A stretch of 32,416 bases of DNA from Lamprocystis purpurea DSM 4197 (lineage in GTDB: Bacteria; Pseudomonadota; Gammaproteobacteria; Chromatiales; Chromatiaceae), in the NCBI RefSeq assembly GCF_000379525.1, contig NZ_KB902375.1:24498-56913 (forward strand). The letters are read 5' to 3'. This document shows positions 10,023 through 30,483 of the stretch, piece by piece (positions within the stretch are counted from its first letter, which is position 1; each line of letters starts with the position of its first letter). Under the pieces are notes generated by a model, which did not search any database, had not been told where the DNA came from, and worked only from the letters and a program-made list of their open reading frames with translations. The position numbers and the translations under genes are program-made.

Positions 10023-10205
10023 ATGCCGTCCGACGTCACAACACACTGGCAGCCCGTGGATCTGGGCGACGGGGTCCGCGCCTGTTTCGAGGTCATCCCC
10101 CGCGGGGGCCGCGAGGAGGTCGGCGTTCTCGATGCCCTCCCCTTCGATCAAGTCACCAAAACCCTCGGCAAGATCGCCGCCAGCCTCGGCGCGGCCATTG
10201 CGAAG
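10023..10205 (+). pseudogene. Trypco1 (CU044_2847-type) domain protein, 5' fragment
   Basis: Trypco1 domains are small (~100 residues) and are typically encoded beside trypsin-like proteases in NTP-dependent conflict systems; their biochemical role is unknown. This fragment starts at ATG 10023 with GGAG 7 nt upstream. It encodes the N-terminal half: MPSDVTTHWQPVDLG, then GREEVGVLDALPFDQVTKTL, then the start of the conserved helix GKIAASLGAAIAK. At 10206 it switches abruptly into sequence copied from the neighbouring trypsin gene and stops at 10229. The missing half appears at 10618-10806. Assignment rests on pattern resemblance and genomic context. Confidence 0.6.
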
Positions 10206-10503
10206 TGGTCGGGCGCGACACCACCCTGAGCAGCCCCATCGCCTGCGGACCCTGGCAAGGCGCCCCGCGCCAGGCGGTGCTCCGCCACCTTGACGGCGAC
10301 CTGGACCTGGCCCTGCTGCATGACCCCGACGGACCGGCACCTGTCCTGGCTTTGGCCCCGCGCCTCGGCGCCCCGCCGGAATCCGGCGCCGACCTCATCG
10401 GCATCGGCTATCCGGTGCGCGACGACCAGCCCGAGTTCGACCAGATCACCGGCCACTACGAAGGCGAGACCAGCCGGCAACCCGCCGCCGGCGGCACCCG
10501 GAC
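10206..10503 (+). pseudogene. internal fragment of a trypsin-like protease (duplicate of part of 10830-11768)
   Basis: Very similar to about 10957-11250, starting gtcgggcgcgacacc and ending ggcggcacccggacc. It corresponds to residues ~44-139 of the intact protease downstream. It includes the segment with the catalytic Asp (GDLDLALL) but neither the His nor the Ser motif, so it cannot be active. Small indels (for example extra residues after GPAPV) show that it has diverged. It is fused in place after the Trypco1 5' fragment and is followed by a REP-like element. Confidence 0.8.
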
Positions 10504-10506
10504 CAG

Positions 10507-10617
10507 CTTCTCGTTCCCACGCTCCAGCGTGGGAATGCCGTCCGGCCGCTCCAGCGGCCGGTGGCGCCACGCGACGCTGGAGCGTCGCGACTTGCTCCCA
10601 CGCTGGAGCGTTGGAGC
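10507..10617. repeat. multi-hairpin REP-like element, copy 1
   Basis: About 110 bp made of four short hairpins: tcccacgctccagcgtggga, cggccgctccagcggccg, cgcgacgctggagcgtcgcg, and a final cccacgctggagcgt. It is nearly identical to 11919-12031. It sits exactly at the junction between the trypsin fragment and the Trypco1 3' fragment. Confidence 0.85.
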
Positions 10618-10806
10618 CAAATCACCGCAACCCTCGGCAAGATCGCCGCCGGCCTTGGCACGGCCATCGCCAAGGCCAAGCCCACCAAGGCCAGCGTCGA
10701 GCTCGGCCTGGAACTGGGTCTGGAGTCCGGCGCCCTGGTCACACTCATCGCCCGCGGTACCGGCACGGCCAATCTCAAGGTCACGCTCGAATGGGGCGGG
10801 TCCTGA
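10618..10806 (+). pseudogene. Trypco1-type domain, 3' fragment
   Basis: Encodes the C-terminal half of a Trypco1-like domain. The duplicated helix QITATLGKIAAGLGTAIAK (compare VTKTLGKIAASLGAAIAK at 10152-10205) is followed by ASVELGLELGLESGALVTLI and the closing strand ANLKVTLEWGG. The frame is open upstream through the REP-like element to 10561 (a GTG), so an 81-residue product is conceivable. Without the N-terminal half it is unlikely to be a full domain. It ends 24 bp before the intact protease gene, where Trypco1 genes usually lie. Confidence 0.6.
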
Positions 10807-10829
10807 GCGCCGCCCCCTGAGTGCCCGCC

Positions 10830-11768
10830 ATGCCGCTGCCCGACACCGCCGTCGACCCTGGGCTGGCCGCCCTGCGCGCGGCCTGCGTGCGGGTGATGGG
10901 CGCGCGCCCCGGCTGCGGCTTCCCGCCCGCGCCGGGCTGGCTCGTCACCTGCGCCCATGTAGTTGGGCGCGACACCGCCCTGGGCAGCCTCATCGCCTGC
11001 GTACCCTGGCAGGGCGCTCCGCGCGCGGCGGTGCTGCGCCACCTTGACGGCGACCTGGACCTGGCCCTGCTGCATGACCCCGATGGACCGGCCCCGGCGC
11101 TACGCCTCGGCGCCCCACCGGACCCCGGCGCCGACCTCATCGGCATCGGCTATCCGGTGCGCGACGACCAGCCCGAGTTCGACCAGATCACCGGCCATTA
11201 CGAAGGCGAGACCAGCCGGCAACCCGCCGCCGGCGGCACGCGGACCATGCTGAAATTCAAGGACAGCCAGATCGAGCCCGGATTCAGCGGCGGCCCCCTG
11301 TTCGCACCCGGCCGCGGCACGGTCATCGGTGTCATCCGCTGGAGTCGGGATGTGCGCACCGCCCTCGGCGGTTGGGCCATTCCCACTCACGACCTGATCG
11401 ATTGCTGCGCCGCCGCGGGGGTCCCGATCGCGCCGTCCGGCCCGGCCGCCCCGCCCGTCGGCAATCTGCCGGCCCGTCTGCGCGACCTCCTGCTCGCCCT
11501 GCCCGGCTGGAGCCAGACGCGCCGCCGCCGCCAATTCATCACCCTGGCGCTGTGGCAACAGCCGATCCTGAACCGGATCGACCTGGACGGCACCCCGACC
11601 GACGTCGCCGCCGACCTGGCGGTCGCCTGCCTTGAACAGGGCGGACCCGACGCCGACGGCTACACACCGCTGCTTGCGCTGCTCGCCGCCGTGCCGTCCG
11701 AGTTCGGCCCCCAGGCCGCGCGCGATCAGGTGATCGCCGAGATCCTGAGCGCGGCAACGCGACCCTAG
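10830..11768 (+). CDS. trypsin-like serine protease with C-terminal effector-associated domain (EAD)
   Basis: A 312-residue protease of the kind used as effector in NTP-dependent prokaryotic conflict systems. Residues ~8-200 carry a full trypsin triad: His43 in LVTCAHVV, Asp77 in GDLDLALLH and Ser153 in EPGFSGGPLF. Residues ~213-295 form an all-helical module (LRDLLLALPGWSQTRRRRQF, ILNRIDLDG, DGYTPLLALL). This module resembles the N-terminal ~95 residues of the NTPase encoded at 12055-14849, as expected for EADs that pair homotypically. No signal peptide, so it is probably cytoplasmic. The start is ATG 10830; GTG 10821 is an alternative, and neither has a clear Shine-Dalgarno. The stop codon lies within the edge of a 108-bp repeat. 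Confidence 0.88.
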   Translation: MPLPDTAVDPGLAALRAACVRVMGARPGCGFPPAPGWLVTCAHVVGRDTALGSLIACVPWQGAPRAAVLRHLDGDLDLALLHDPDGPAPALRLGAPPDPGADLIGIGYPVRDDQPEFDQITGHYEGETSRQPAAGGTRTMLKFKDSQIEPGFSGGPLFAPGRGTVIGVIRWSRDVRTALGGWAIPTHDLIDCCAAAGVPIAPSGPAAPPVGNLPARLRDLLLALPGWSQTRRRRQFITLALWQQPILNRIDLDGTPTDVAADLAVACLEQGGPDADGYTPLLALLAAVPSEFGPQAARDQVIAEILSAATRP

Positions 11769-11918: not shown

Positions 11919-12031
11919 CTTCTCGTTCCCACGCTCCAGCGTGGGAATGCCGTCCGGCCGCTCCAGCGGCCGGTGGCGCCACGCGACGGCTTCCGCGTCG
12001 CGACTTGCTCCCACGCTGGAGCGTGGGAGCC
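11919..12031. repeat. multi-hairpin REP-like element, copy 2
   Basis: Near-identical to 10507-10617 in the same orientation, with the same four-hairpin structure (the third hairpin differs: cgcgacggcttccgcgtcgcg). It occupies the space between the convergent protease and NTPase genes and ends 23 bp beyond the restored stop codon of the NTPase gene. Confidence 0.85.
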
Positions 12032-12054
12032 AGATCAATAAGAATATCAGTGGC

Positions 12055-14849
12055 TCAGTGTTCAGAGTCGATGGGGACGGAACACAACAAACGCACGCCG
12101 AGGACGCTATGGCGGGCGCTGAAGGGGTCCCGGAAGCGGGACGCGGCAAGCGCGGCAGCCGTACTGCTGCTCCACGAGCCGCCGCGCACCGCCCGCTCAT
12201 CCCGCCCCTGGGTGTCGCTGTCATCCGGGTCGGCGTATTTGTTCAGGCACCACTCCCAGCACAGTTACCCGCGCAGTCCATGAGCCCATAGGGCGAGCAA
12301 TTGCGCGGGTACAGGCCGACCGCGGTGGTCTCGCGCAGGTACAGGGGACCGGTGCGGTCGTAGGTCTCGTCGACGTTGGCATCGCCGCTGCGGTAACCGG
12401 CGCCCCAGGGGAAATCGCGGCCGTCGGTGCCGCGCGCGGCCTTCTCCCACTCGTACTCGGTGGGCAGACGGATGACCTCCGCGGGGCCGATCAACCCGGC
12501 GGCACGCAGGCGCACGGTCAGCCAGCGGCAGTAGGCCAGGGCCTCGACCCAGGCGAGTTCGACCCGCGGGCGGTTGGGTTGGTCCCATTGGGGTTTGGCG
12601 GGCTCGGGAGGCGCGAAACCTTCCTGCCACCAGCGGTCATCCTCATACGCCTCCTTCACTTGAGTAAAGGCCAGGTACTGGACATTGGTGACCGGATAGC
12701 GGGCGATCCGATAGGCCCCGGTCTCGCGGGTCGCGCCGTCCTGCCAGTGGAAAGGCCCGGCGGGAACGGCCTGCCAGGCGATGTCGGGCAGGCCGTCCGG
12801 CCGCAGTCCCACGCCCGCGCGGTCGTCTCCCAGGGCAGCGAGCAGGTCGCCCAGGCGGGTCCGGCGGCTGTGCCAGCGCGGCGCCTGTGCGGGGTCGGCG
12901 AGTTGGGCAAGCACCTGATCGAGGCCGGCACGCAGCCAGACCGGGGCCTGCGGATCGGCCGCGCGCAACCGCGCGACCAGGGCGCTCAGGGTCGCGGCCT
13001 CGCGGCCCTCGCCGGTGAGGGTGTGCAGGAGCGCGGTGCGGGGGTCCAGGTCCGGACCGGCGGCGGACGCGGACCCGGCGGTGTCCGCGGCGCGCGCCGC
13101 CTGGGTCAGGTCGAGCAGTTCCGCGGCGTCGTCGCGCACCAGGAAGTGGGCGATGAGCGGCGCGTCGCGCACCAACTCGGCCCAGAGTTCGGCGCCCTCC
13201 AGCAGTTTGCGCTGCTCCAGGACCACCTCCGGTCTGGGCTTCAGCCCGTCCGGCCGGCCGGCGGCGGCCCAACCGGCGGCGTCCTGCGCCAGGCGGGGGC
13301 GCAGCATCAGGGCCTCGCGGCGCCGCTCGATCCACTGCGCCAGGGCGGGCCAGGCGTTGAACAGCGCCTCGTGGGCGACCTCCACCACGCGGCCCTGGAG
13401 GACGTCGGCGGCGGACCTGGTCTCGCACCGCCCGGCGGTGACCAGCAACCGGGCCTGGGGTCCGGCCAGTTCGCGGATCAGCGCCTGCGCCGACGCGTCC
13501 CCCTCCCAATAGGCCAGGTCCTCCCGCCGGCGGGTCGCCTCGCCGTCCAGGCGCACGGTGAGCAGCCGCGAGAAGACCCGCGGCAAGGTCGGGTCCAGGT
13601 CGACCCCGGCGCGGGCGACCGCCTCGCGGGCCCGTTGCGCGATCACCCCCGCGAGTCCGCCGATGGCGTCATAGTCGGCCTCGCCCAGCGTCGGCTCGGG
13701 CTGGCCGCTGCAGCGGGTGTAGAGGTCCTTGAGGGCGAAGGCGAGCAGGGCCAGCCCGCCCGGTTGGCGGTCCGCGTCCCTGACCAGCCGGTTGGTCAGG
13801 GCGTCGACCAACCGGACCGGCCGGGCCAGGGTGCGCCGCCGCACCGGGCCCTCGACCATCTCGGTCATGGCCGCCGGACCGGGGGTGCCGACCCCATAGT
13901 GGGCGCAGTCGTTGAACACGGCACGCAGACCGGGGTCCGCAATGCAGCGGTCCAGAAAATCCGACCGGATGGTGATCACCAGGCGCGGGTAACCGGCCTG
14001 ACCCAGGACCAGGAGCAGGGTATCCAGAAAGACCTGACGCTCGGCGTCCGCAATGCTGGTGAAGAGCTCTTCGAACTGATCGACGATCAGCAGCCAGCAG
14101 GCCCCGGCGGGTCGCCCGGCGAGCACCCGTCCGGTCAGTTCGGCGAGGCCCGCGCGGGTGCCGCGCAGAGCCGCCGCTTCCTGGTCCGGATCGCCGAGGC
14201 CGGGGATGCCGGCCGGCCCGAGGCTGTAGACCAGATTCTGCAGAGGGTCTCGGGATGGCTGCGAGGGCTTCATCGCGGTGATCACCCAGCCCGCGGAGCC
14301 GGCGATCGGGGTGCGGGCCGGGTCCTTGAGGGTACCCCAAAGACCAGCGCGGACCAGGGAGGACTTGCCGGACCCCGAGGCCCCGGCGACCACCAGCAGG
14401 CCCTTGCCCTGGGGGGTCTGAAGCCGCGCCAGCAGATCCGCGGTCTCGGCCGTGCGGCCGAAGAAGATCGGCGCCTGGGTGTGGTCCAGGGCCAACATGC
14501 CGGGATAGGGGGCATGGGGCCAATCCACCACGGGGCTGGTACAGCCCAGACGCTCGCGCAGGCGGTCGAAGTCCGCTTTGACCCGGCCATCGGCCAGGCC
14601 CTCGTCACGGAGCGCGCCGAGCACGGCGCACAGGGGCGTTTCACCCCGTTCGGTGGGCTGGTCGAAGTCCAGGCAGGCGCGAATCAGCTCCGAGACCACT
14701 ACCGCCGGTGCACCGTCCCACTGCACCTCCCCGATCACCTGGTGGTTCAGCAGGGCAAGGGACACCAGCGCTTTGAGCCGGCGCTGATCCTTCAGGGGCT
14801 CGATCCGCTCCAGCAGGCGGCACAGGTCGTTGAAGGTCGATTGGTCCAT
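12055..14849 (-). pseudogene. EAD-nSTAND NTPase-FGE-like protein, frameshifted near the 3' end
   Basis: A multidomain conflict-system protein. Residues 1-95 form an effector-associated domain (RRLKALVSLALLNHQVIG, GETPLCAVLGAL) like the one ending the neighbouring protease. Residues ~128-560 are an nSTAND1-type NTPase: Walker A GASGSGKSS at 156-164, Walker B LLIVDQFEEL at 253-262 and sensor strand LVITIRSDF. From ~residue 680 it has a formylglycine-generating-enzyme/sulfatase-modifying fold (VPAGPFHWQDG, YPVTNVQYLAF, RLPTEYEWEKAARG, YGLMDCAGN). The frame then reaches a stop at 12243, giving 868 residues. Shifting by 2 nt at 12259-12263 restores WEWCLNKYADPDDSD... RGGSW... for 67 more residues to TGA at 12055. 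TTG 14858 is an alternative start. It may be a true pseudogene, a phase-variable tract or a sequencing error. Confidence 0.82.
12091..12183 (-). other. DGR variable-region-like 3' segment of the FGE domain (out of frame)
   Basis: In the restored frame the codons run from RGGSW to LGVR. Framework residues (RGGSW, AA, R, R, R, G, R) sit at the spacing seen in DGR-diversified FGE/C-type-lectin domains, whose templates read RGGSWNNN...RAANRNR...IGFR. Nearly all positions that would be Asn (AAC/AAT) in such a template are here codons with free bases 1-2 and third base C or T: AGC, AGC, AGT, TCC, TTC, GAC, TTC, AGC, GCC, CAT, AGC, GTC, CTC. That pattern is expected from adenine-directed mutagenesis. 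No reverse transcriptase or template repeat is visible in the window. Confidence 0.5.
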
Positions 14850-14975
14850 GGGTGCCAAGGATACCGCGATTGCACCAGGCGAACGAATACTTGCCCAATC
14901 TCCGGAGCGGTGTCACGAGAAGCTATTTCGCGCTGTTCGGATGTTGTCTGCCGGGGCTCTGTTGCCTATGCTTGA

Positions 14976-30124: not shown

Positions 30125-30483
30125 TCCACTGCGCATCGACCTGAATCGACACTGCGAGACGCCCGTCGCCCCGCGAACACCGGGCCTTCGCTCATCGTCA
30201 ACGTCGAGCGGACCCGCTTCTTCAGGCTAAACCGCGCCCAGCGCGGTATGCGATGTTCTTGGATTGGCTCGGCCCCGGCAGACTCGACAATTGATGGAGT
30301 TGGCGCTTTTAAAGTTTTGAAGAGCATCAATTTTAAGCCGCGTCTCCAGCGAGGTTGGTTAAATCCCCAAGGCCGAACACACAATGAAAATTACGTATTT
30401 CGCGCCGGACGCGGTTTAGGACACGCAACGAAACACCAGGCTCGCCGGGAGGCCGCGAGCGCTCCAATGGTGCGTCAAACCCC
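30125..30483. other. non-coding DNA between cas2 and the CRISPR leader
   Basis: No gene is supported. The stretch holds GC-rich palindromic words (ccgcgcccagcgcgg; cgccggacgcgg) and AT-rich interruptions (gcgcttttaaagttttg, atcaattttaag). It has the look of another REP-like element. A frame running across it on the plus strand has no recognisable features. Confidence 0.5.

Follow-up and report, generated by a model that had tools for sequence, protein, structure and literature searches.

An orphaned, frameshifted sensor gene of Lamprocystis purpurea DSM 4197 and the probable variable region of a former diversity-generating retroelement target at its detached end

Does the end of a sensor gene that is stranded in the wrong reading frame represent the variable region (VR) of a diversity-generating retroelement (DGR), and if so, does the genome still contain the template repeat (TR) and the reverse transcriptase (RT) that would have varied it? 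The window, which is the whole stretch of DNA analyzed, comprised 32,416 nt from Lamprocystis purpurea DSM 4197 (GCF_000379525.1, NZ_KB902375.1, positions 24,498 to 56,913, forward strand). All coordinates given here are positions within this window, with position 1 as its first letter. Genome contigs were scanned for orthologues, and among the best 80 of 520 confirmed stretches, one close orthologue was found on JACDZG010000159.1 of the MAG Chromatiaceae bacterium ppb02, which is also genome G116. The close comparison is based on this full orthologue and on a partial one from genome G119. The gene and its neighborhood contained the following features:

12243..14858, minus strand: sensor ORF, EAD8-nSTAND1-FGE, 871 aa, shortened by a frameshift within the FGE domain (Pfam)
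residues 8-104 of the sensor ORF, minus strand: EAD8 (Pfam)
residues 117-537 of the sensor ORF, minus strand: nSTAND1 (Pfam)
residues 713-865 of the sensor ORF, minus strand: FGE, truncated (Pfam)
12260..12263, minus strand: extra TG, the frame-shifting site (CACA on the plus strand), absent from ppb02 and from the G119 remnant
12055..12258, minus strand: out-of-frame end of the FGE domain, including the stop codon
12097..12183, minus strand: putative DGR VR, with the bases differing from ppb02 between 12104 and 12175
11919..12037, no strand assigned: palindromic MITE-like repeat, copy 1, directly behind the sensor tail
10821..11768, plus strand: uninterrupted ORF of 315 aa for a trypsin-like peptidase that contains EAD8 (Pfam), with a similar ORF in ppb02
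10507-10624: palindromic MITE-like repeat, copy 2, following the partial trypsin gene copy

The preliminary description, made from the letters of the DNA, had proposed a fusion of EAD and STAND modules to an FGE-type sensor, and EAD8, nSTAND1 and FGE were all present in the ORF 14858-12243. They occur in a single protein with a trypsin-EAD8 protein encoded nearby, which is likely the partner of the sensor. The minus-strand ORF terminated with ...LMDCAGNCAGSGA before its stop codon, and the other minus-strand frame, 12258-12055, was translated as WEWCLNKYADPDDSDTQGRDERAVRGGSWSSSTAAALAASRFRDPFSARHSVLGVRLLCSVPIDSEH, likewise up to a stop codon, which supplies the part of the FGE domain that the ORF lacks. 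In the alignment, the shift amounted to 2 nt, one additional TG relative to ppb02, exactly the size and the out-of-frame C terminus that had been described before. The FGE-sulfatase match of the window ORF was truncated and reached 5.2e-22, compared to 8.8e-36 in the intact ppb02 orthologue. The window copy is left without the end of the FGE fold and without an in-frame VR, and because the extra TG separates the sensor from its variable tail, this copy is most likely inactive.

A VR in a C-terminal FGE or C-type-lectin domain, here out of frame, agrees with known DGR targets. A profile of seven FGE parts matched 2y3c, the variable protein 1 of Treponema denticola, with E=6.7e-17 among 34 matched sequences, albeit ranked below 7spq, EgtB and other ordinary proteins of the FGE fold. 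In that protein the FGE/C-type-lectin domain is also the part varied by a DGR; its protein context is different and is not known to include EAD8 and nSTAND1. For DGR 6 of Thiohalocapsa sp. PB-PSB1, the respective part of PMC10907252 describes a target with EAD8, nSTAND1 and a C-terminal FGE domain plus a trypsin-EAD8 gene nearby; it proposes invader sensing and protease-driven cell death for this type of conflict system and states that CLec-STAND proteins were not experimentally characterized. The window resembles this system by its EAD8-nSTAND1-FGE sensor, its trypsin-EAD8 gene and its origin from a purple sulfur bacterium. It differs in that the target is frameshifted, that neither a TR nor a functional RT was found in the assembly, and that a MITE-like repeat follows the VR; degenerate loci with MITE-like repeats in place of DGR parts are described in the same part of PMC10907252. 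In the EAD-linked conflict systems outlined in the relevant part of PMC7159879, effector-associated domains also join the components and DGR-linked FGE-type domains occur, but these are mainly MoxR-vWA ternary systems, unlike the window. Literature searches yielded nothing that matched diversity-generating retroelement together with Thiodictyon, or ppb02 together with Chromatiaceae. The kind of system, that of DGR 6, has already been published, and new is its orphaned and frameshifted member.

Evaluation of the tail as a VR needs to consider how its variation is distributed. The ppb02 orthologue was an uninterrupted 946-aa ORF with 93% amino acid identity over residues 1-866. Inside the VR, 27 of 87 nt differed (31%), and identity was complete over 78 nt on its upstream side and over 179 nt on its downstream side. 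Counting aligned bases only, the immediate flanks (12342-12184 plus 12096-11760) differed at 4 of 494 positions (0.8%) and the rest of the sensor gene at 176 of 2,516 (7%). On the trypsin side (11696-10618), 77 of 1,079 aligned bases were different. The most divergent other 87-nt window within 14858-10618 was located in the trypsin gene (11458-11372) and contained 16 differences. The segment is hypervariable and not conserved when it is compared with this relative, as the preliminary description had expected; it had placed the VR at 12091-12183, which was the right region without the exact bounds, the best placement being 12183-12097. The differences were distributed to codon positions 1, 2 and 3 as 11, 12 and 4. 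The G119 remnant (L271, contig C337) comprised about 900 bp of the sensor gene, 95% identical to the window and with one in-frame stop, and contributed a partial third allele, in which unrelated sequence enters the VR after its first codons. These opening codons were AGC AGC AGT in the window, TTC ACC AAT in ppb02 and CAC AGC TAT in G119, so that the third bases agreed in all three. Restriction of the hypervariability to the VR between close relatives is documented by this one close full orthologue and the one partial third allele.

Outside of the VR itself, the surrounding stretch of about 580 nt, to which the MITE-like repeat behind the tail also belongs, was >99% identical to ppb02, in contrast to the 7% difference in the rest of the sensor gene (P=5.6e-10 for the contrast in identity). 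The near-identical flanks suggest that the changes in the VR may be recent.

A DGR should leave its changes at positions that are adenine in the template. The cognate template was not found, and the TRs of seven related DGRs were used instead, over 75 nt with 26 differences between the window and ppb02 (one-sided Fisher test). The differences were distributed as follows:

G116 (ppb02) TR: 17 of 24 adenine sites, 9 of 51 other sites, P=1.1e-5
G049 TR: 16 of 23 adenine sites, 10 of 52 other sites, P=4.2e-5
G107 TR: 16 of 21 adenine sites, 10 of 54 other sites, P=5.1e-6
G035 TR: 15 of 25 adenine sites, 11 of 50 other sites, P=1.4e-3
G004 TR: 16 of 29 adenine sites, 10 of 46 other sites, P=3.4e-3
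G117a TR: 14 of 24 adenine sites, 12 of 51 other sites, P=3.8e-3
G117b TR: 11 of 20 adenine sites, 15 of 55 other sites, P=0.026

For the most part, the differences coincided with adenines in the TRs of related DGRs. Differences were also present at 5 of the 39 positions at which none of the seven TRs has an adenine; under a DGR model, these must be ascribed to drift or a different template. In the nine columns with AAY codons, the first two bases differed in 13 of 18 cases, the third base in 1 of 9.

Two further tests carried less weight. The window VR alone was changed relative to the G049 TR at 17 of 23 adenine sites and 19 of 58 others, and with the seven TRs the enrichment at adenine sites gave P values of 2e-4 to 2e-3 for the three TRs with the fewest other changes. 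This test was dropped as a proof of a DGR and is not decisive because some FGE paralogues of unknown status are similarly enriched, for instance L016 with 24 of 29 and 20 of 52 against related TRs. The NNC/NNT codons emphasized in the preliminary description were indeed present, since all nine codons of the window tail at columns that are AAY in at least four of the seven TRs were NNY, as were 13 of 18 in the remaining columns of the comparison; with an NNY background of 57% in the sensor gene, nine of nine gives P=0.0065. As a signature specific for DGR targets it failed, because 17 of 34 compared tails, the window included, scored nine of nine (tail L029 was left out due to a 3-nt gap), and the test is weak when taken alone.

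The orthologues of the sensor are accompanied by DGR machinery. The G049 orthologue, located at a contig start, was 60% identical over residues 384-866, contained one in-frame TGA, and adjoined a TR relative to which 15 of 23 adenine sites but 0 of 58 others were changed; a bAvd fragment (PF22296) was nearby. The orthologue in the Thiohalocapsa MAG SRR4030058_bin.7 (L152) shared the three domains EAD8, nSTAND1 and FGE with the window at 51% identity. Its VR was at the extreme C terminus at the gene end, followed by a TR 438 bp beyond and then by an RT with the motif IGNLTSQ; all five mismatches between TR and VR were at TR adenines. Unlike the window, this locus has target, TR and RT in a row, and among the five loci examined for such a set, it alone had one. 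Self-comparison of eight loci for TR-VR pairs with mismatches at template adenines was successful in seven of them, the eighth, L089, showing no such pair. The portions of mismatches at template adenines were:

G049: 15 of 15
G116: 11 of 11 and 9 of 9
G004: 17 of 18 and 17 of 17
G107 (L147): 12 of 12
G035: 19 of 19 and 11 of 13
G117 (L150): 16 of 16, twice
G117 (L148): 14 of 19, weaker

RTs with an IGxxxSQ motif were encoded in L145 (G116), L146 (G004), L147 (G107) and L150 (G117), and further ones in G107, G116, G118 and G119, with 29 of 49 RVT_1 matches looked at as loci; none was seen on the G049 and G035 stretches. The proposal of a VR had been tied to the occurrence of a TR or an RT in this genome or close relatives, and IGxxxSQ RTs as well as adenine-specific TR-VR pairs do exist in genomes of the same genus and the same family.

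Within L. purpurea DSM 4197 itself, the outcome was different. The draft assembly consists of 211 contigs and has a completeness rating of 100%. A search of this draft with the window VR, the G049 TR and the ppb02 VR yielded no TR matching the window VR, and all matches were inside FGE genes; when the VR of the paralogue on contig C165 with its tail was used, the matches were C165, C123 and a dispersed repeat. There was no TR close to the sensor gene in the window, none on the ppb02 stretch bearing the orthologue, and no cognate TR in the eight genomes (L. purpurea DSM 4197 and seven others) searched with the ppb02 VR. In these seven, the matches besides ppb02 and the G119 remnant, which were partly inspected individually, were 67-78% identical over at least 59 bases, or short. 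An RVT_1 search of L. purpurea DSM 4197 detected one fragment and no DGR RT; by its motif, we take this fragment to be group-II-like. With a profile built from nine IGxxxSQ DGR RTs, a single match was obtained, which covered profile positions 1-50 of 200 (E=6e-10); the profile had 12 matches in ppb02, 10 in G107 and 8 in G119, the weaker of which include other RT types. This DGR-RT fragment (L270:5754-6281, contig C1) lies in a 175-aa ORF without YxDD and without a Pfam family, which faces an FGE gene. The genome search for a DGR RT and a TR that the preliminary description had suggested ended with an RT fragment devoid of the catalytic motif and no matching TR. Because the draft assembly contained a DGR RT as a fragment only, the sensor was sorted as a former target and not as part of an active DGR. 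Given this 211-contig draft, the DGR machinery was probably, though not certainly, lost rather than left unassembled.

Other FGE genes of this genome, which has 53 FGE matches, nevertheless bear traces of DGRs. Compared with the G116 TR, the paralogue C123 was changed at 16 of 24 adenine sites and 3 of 57 others (P=1.5e-8), and C165 at 12 of 24 and 6 of 57; L034 was changed at 14 of 20 and 6 of 61 relative to a G117 TR. These adenine-biased fits indicate that DGRs most likely acted once in this genome. The paralogue C165 also switches its frame inside the gene. On contig C172, the neighboring FGE genes L002, L017 and L029 are very similar before and after the VR and strongly different inside it, which is a DGR-like footprint. 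A hairpin just past the stop codons of C123 and C165, at which both contigs end, was considered as a DGR homing hairpin and rejected. It is uninformative on DGRs because it belongs to a 55-bp repeat (at the L087 and L088 ends) that is spread through the genome, with at least 38 further places when the 40 best candidates were scored, one of them at about 30227-30281 of the window.

Taken together, hypervariability relative to ppb02, coincidence with adenine sites and the machinery beside orthologues support the reading of the segment as a DGR VR, and with a probability of about 0.86 it belongs to an orphaned, frameshifted former DGR target of the DGR 6 type. Since the cognate template was not found, we infer the DGR mechanism, and with it a putative retrohoming into the window VR, from the pattern of the differences; no donor was seen. 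In the relatives, and presumably in the ancestors, a DGR RT would copy the TR while misincorporating at adenines, and the VR would be replaced by the resulting cDNA, so that binding residues change and the framework is kept. The C-terminal FGE/C-type-lectin domain may provide the changeable surface that binds a trigger molecule, and binding would lead to assembly of the STAND protein with nSTAND1 as the NTPase switch. EAD8 as an adapter would then recruit the neighboring trypsin-EAD8 protease by EAD8-EAD8 contact, as proposed in the part of PMC10907252 on such systems. The sensor would thereby have an immune function. The assembly of L. purpurea DSM 4197 lacks both the template and a functional RT, and the extra TG cuts the sensor before its variable tail.

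Alternatively, the tail may have been acquired from another FGE gene through ordinary recombination or gene conversion, with no mutagenic retrohoming at this locus. The 53 FGE matches and the near-identical tract flanking the VR are in line with such an event, but no donor was found, as the matches to the ppb02 VR with flanks other than those of the window, ppb02 and G119 are only 67-78% identical over at least 59 bases, or short, and conversion alone would not preserve third codon bases while altering first and second ones, which makes this very unlikely. An ordinary FGE domain on which a DGR never acted, with exposed loops varying by positive selection or relaxed constraint, would explain why paralogues of unknown status vary at the same columns and why no cognate TR was found. 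It would not explain a divergence of 31% in the VR vs 0.8% in the flanks, the coincidence of differing sites with adenine sites of related TRs, or orthologues that carry TRs and in one case also a DGR RT, and it is the least probable of the possibilities considered.

The extra TG might also be an assembly or sequencing error, with template and RT unassembled and the target live. A draft of 211 contigs could hide them, the more so as contigs C123 and C165 end just past other DGR-like targets at a dispersed repeat. On the other hand, the RT profile with its 12, 10 and 8 matches in three relatives found merely a fragment here, the genome is rated 100% complete, and C165 likewise changes frame, which together leave a live target rather doubtful. 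For the former DGR target, a tail that was exchanged recently and then mutagenized anew could account for a near-identical tract of about 580 nt with a divergent VR. A tentative course of events, possible although not the one to be expected, would be a recent horizontal tail exchange, then a phase of intense DGR mutagenesis in one or both lineages, and then loss of the DGR here, by which the repertoire was frozen.

The intact ppb02 copy and the frameshifted copy in L. purpurea DSM 4197 form a natural pair in which a DGR-diversified STAND sensor can be studied, the former in a genome with several DGR-type RTs, the latter in one in which no working DGR was found. With this pair, the fate of a receptor after loss of its retroelement and the exchange of receptor tails between species become testable in purple sulfur bacteria. 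On the other side of the tail, part of the trypsin-EAD8 gene is duplicated (10205-10505 vs 10959-11247, 91-95% identical), and the upstream copy is partial and stops at the MITE-like repeat.
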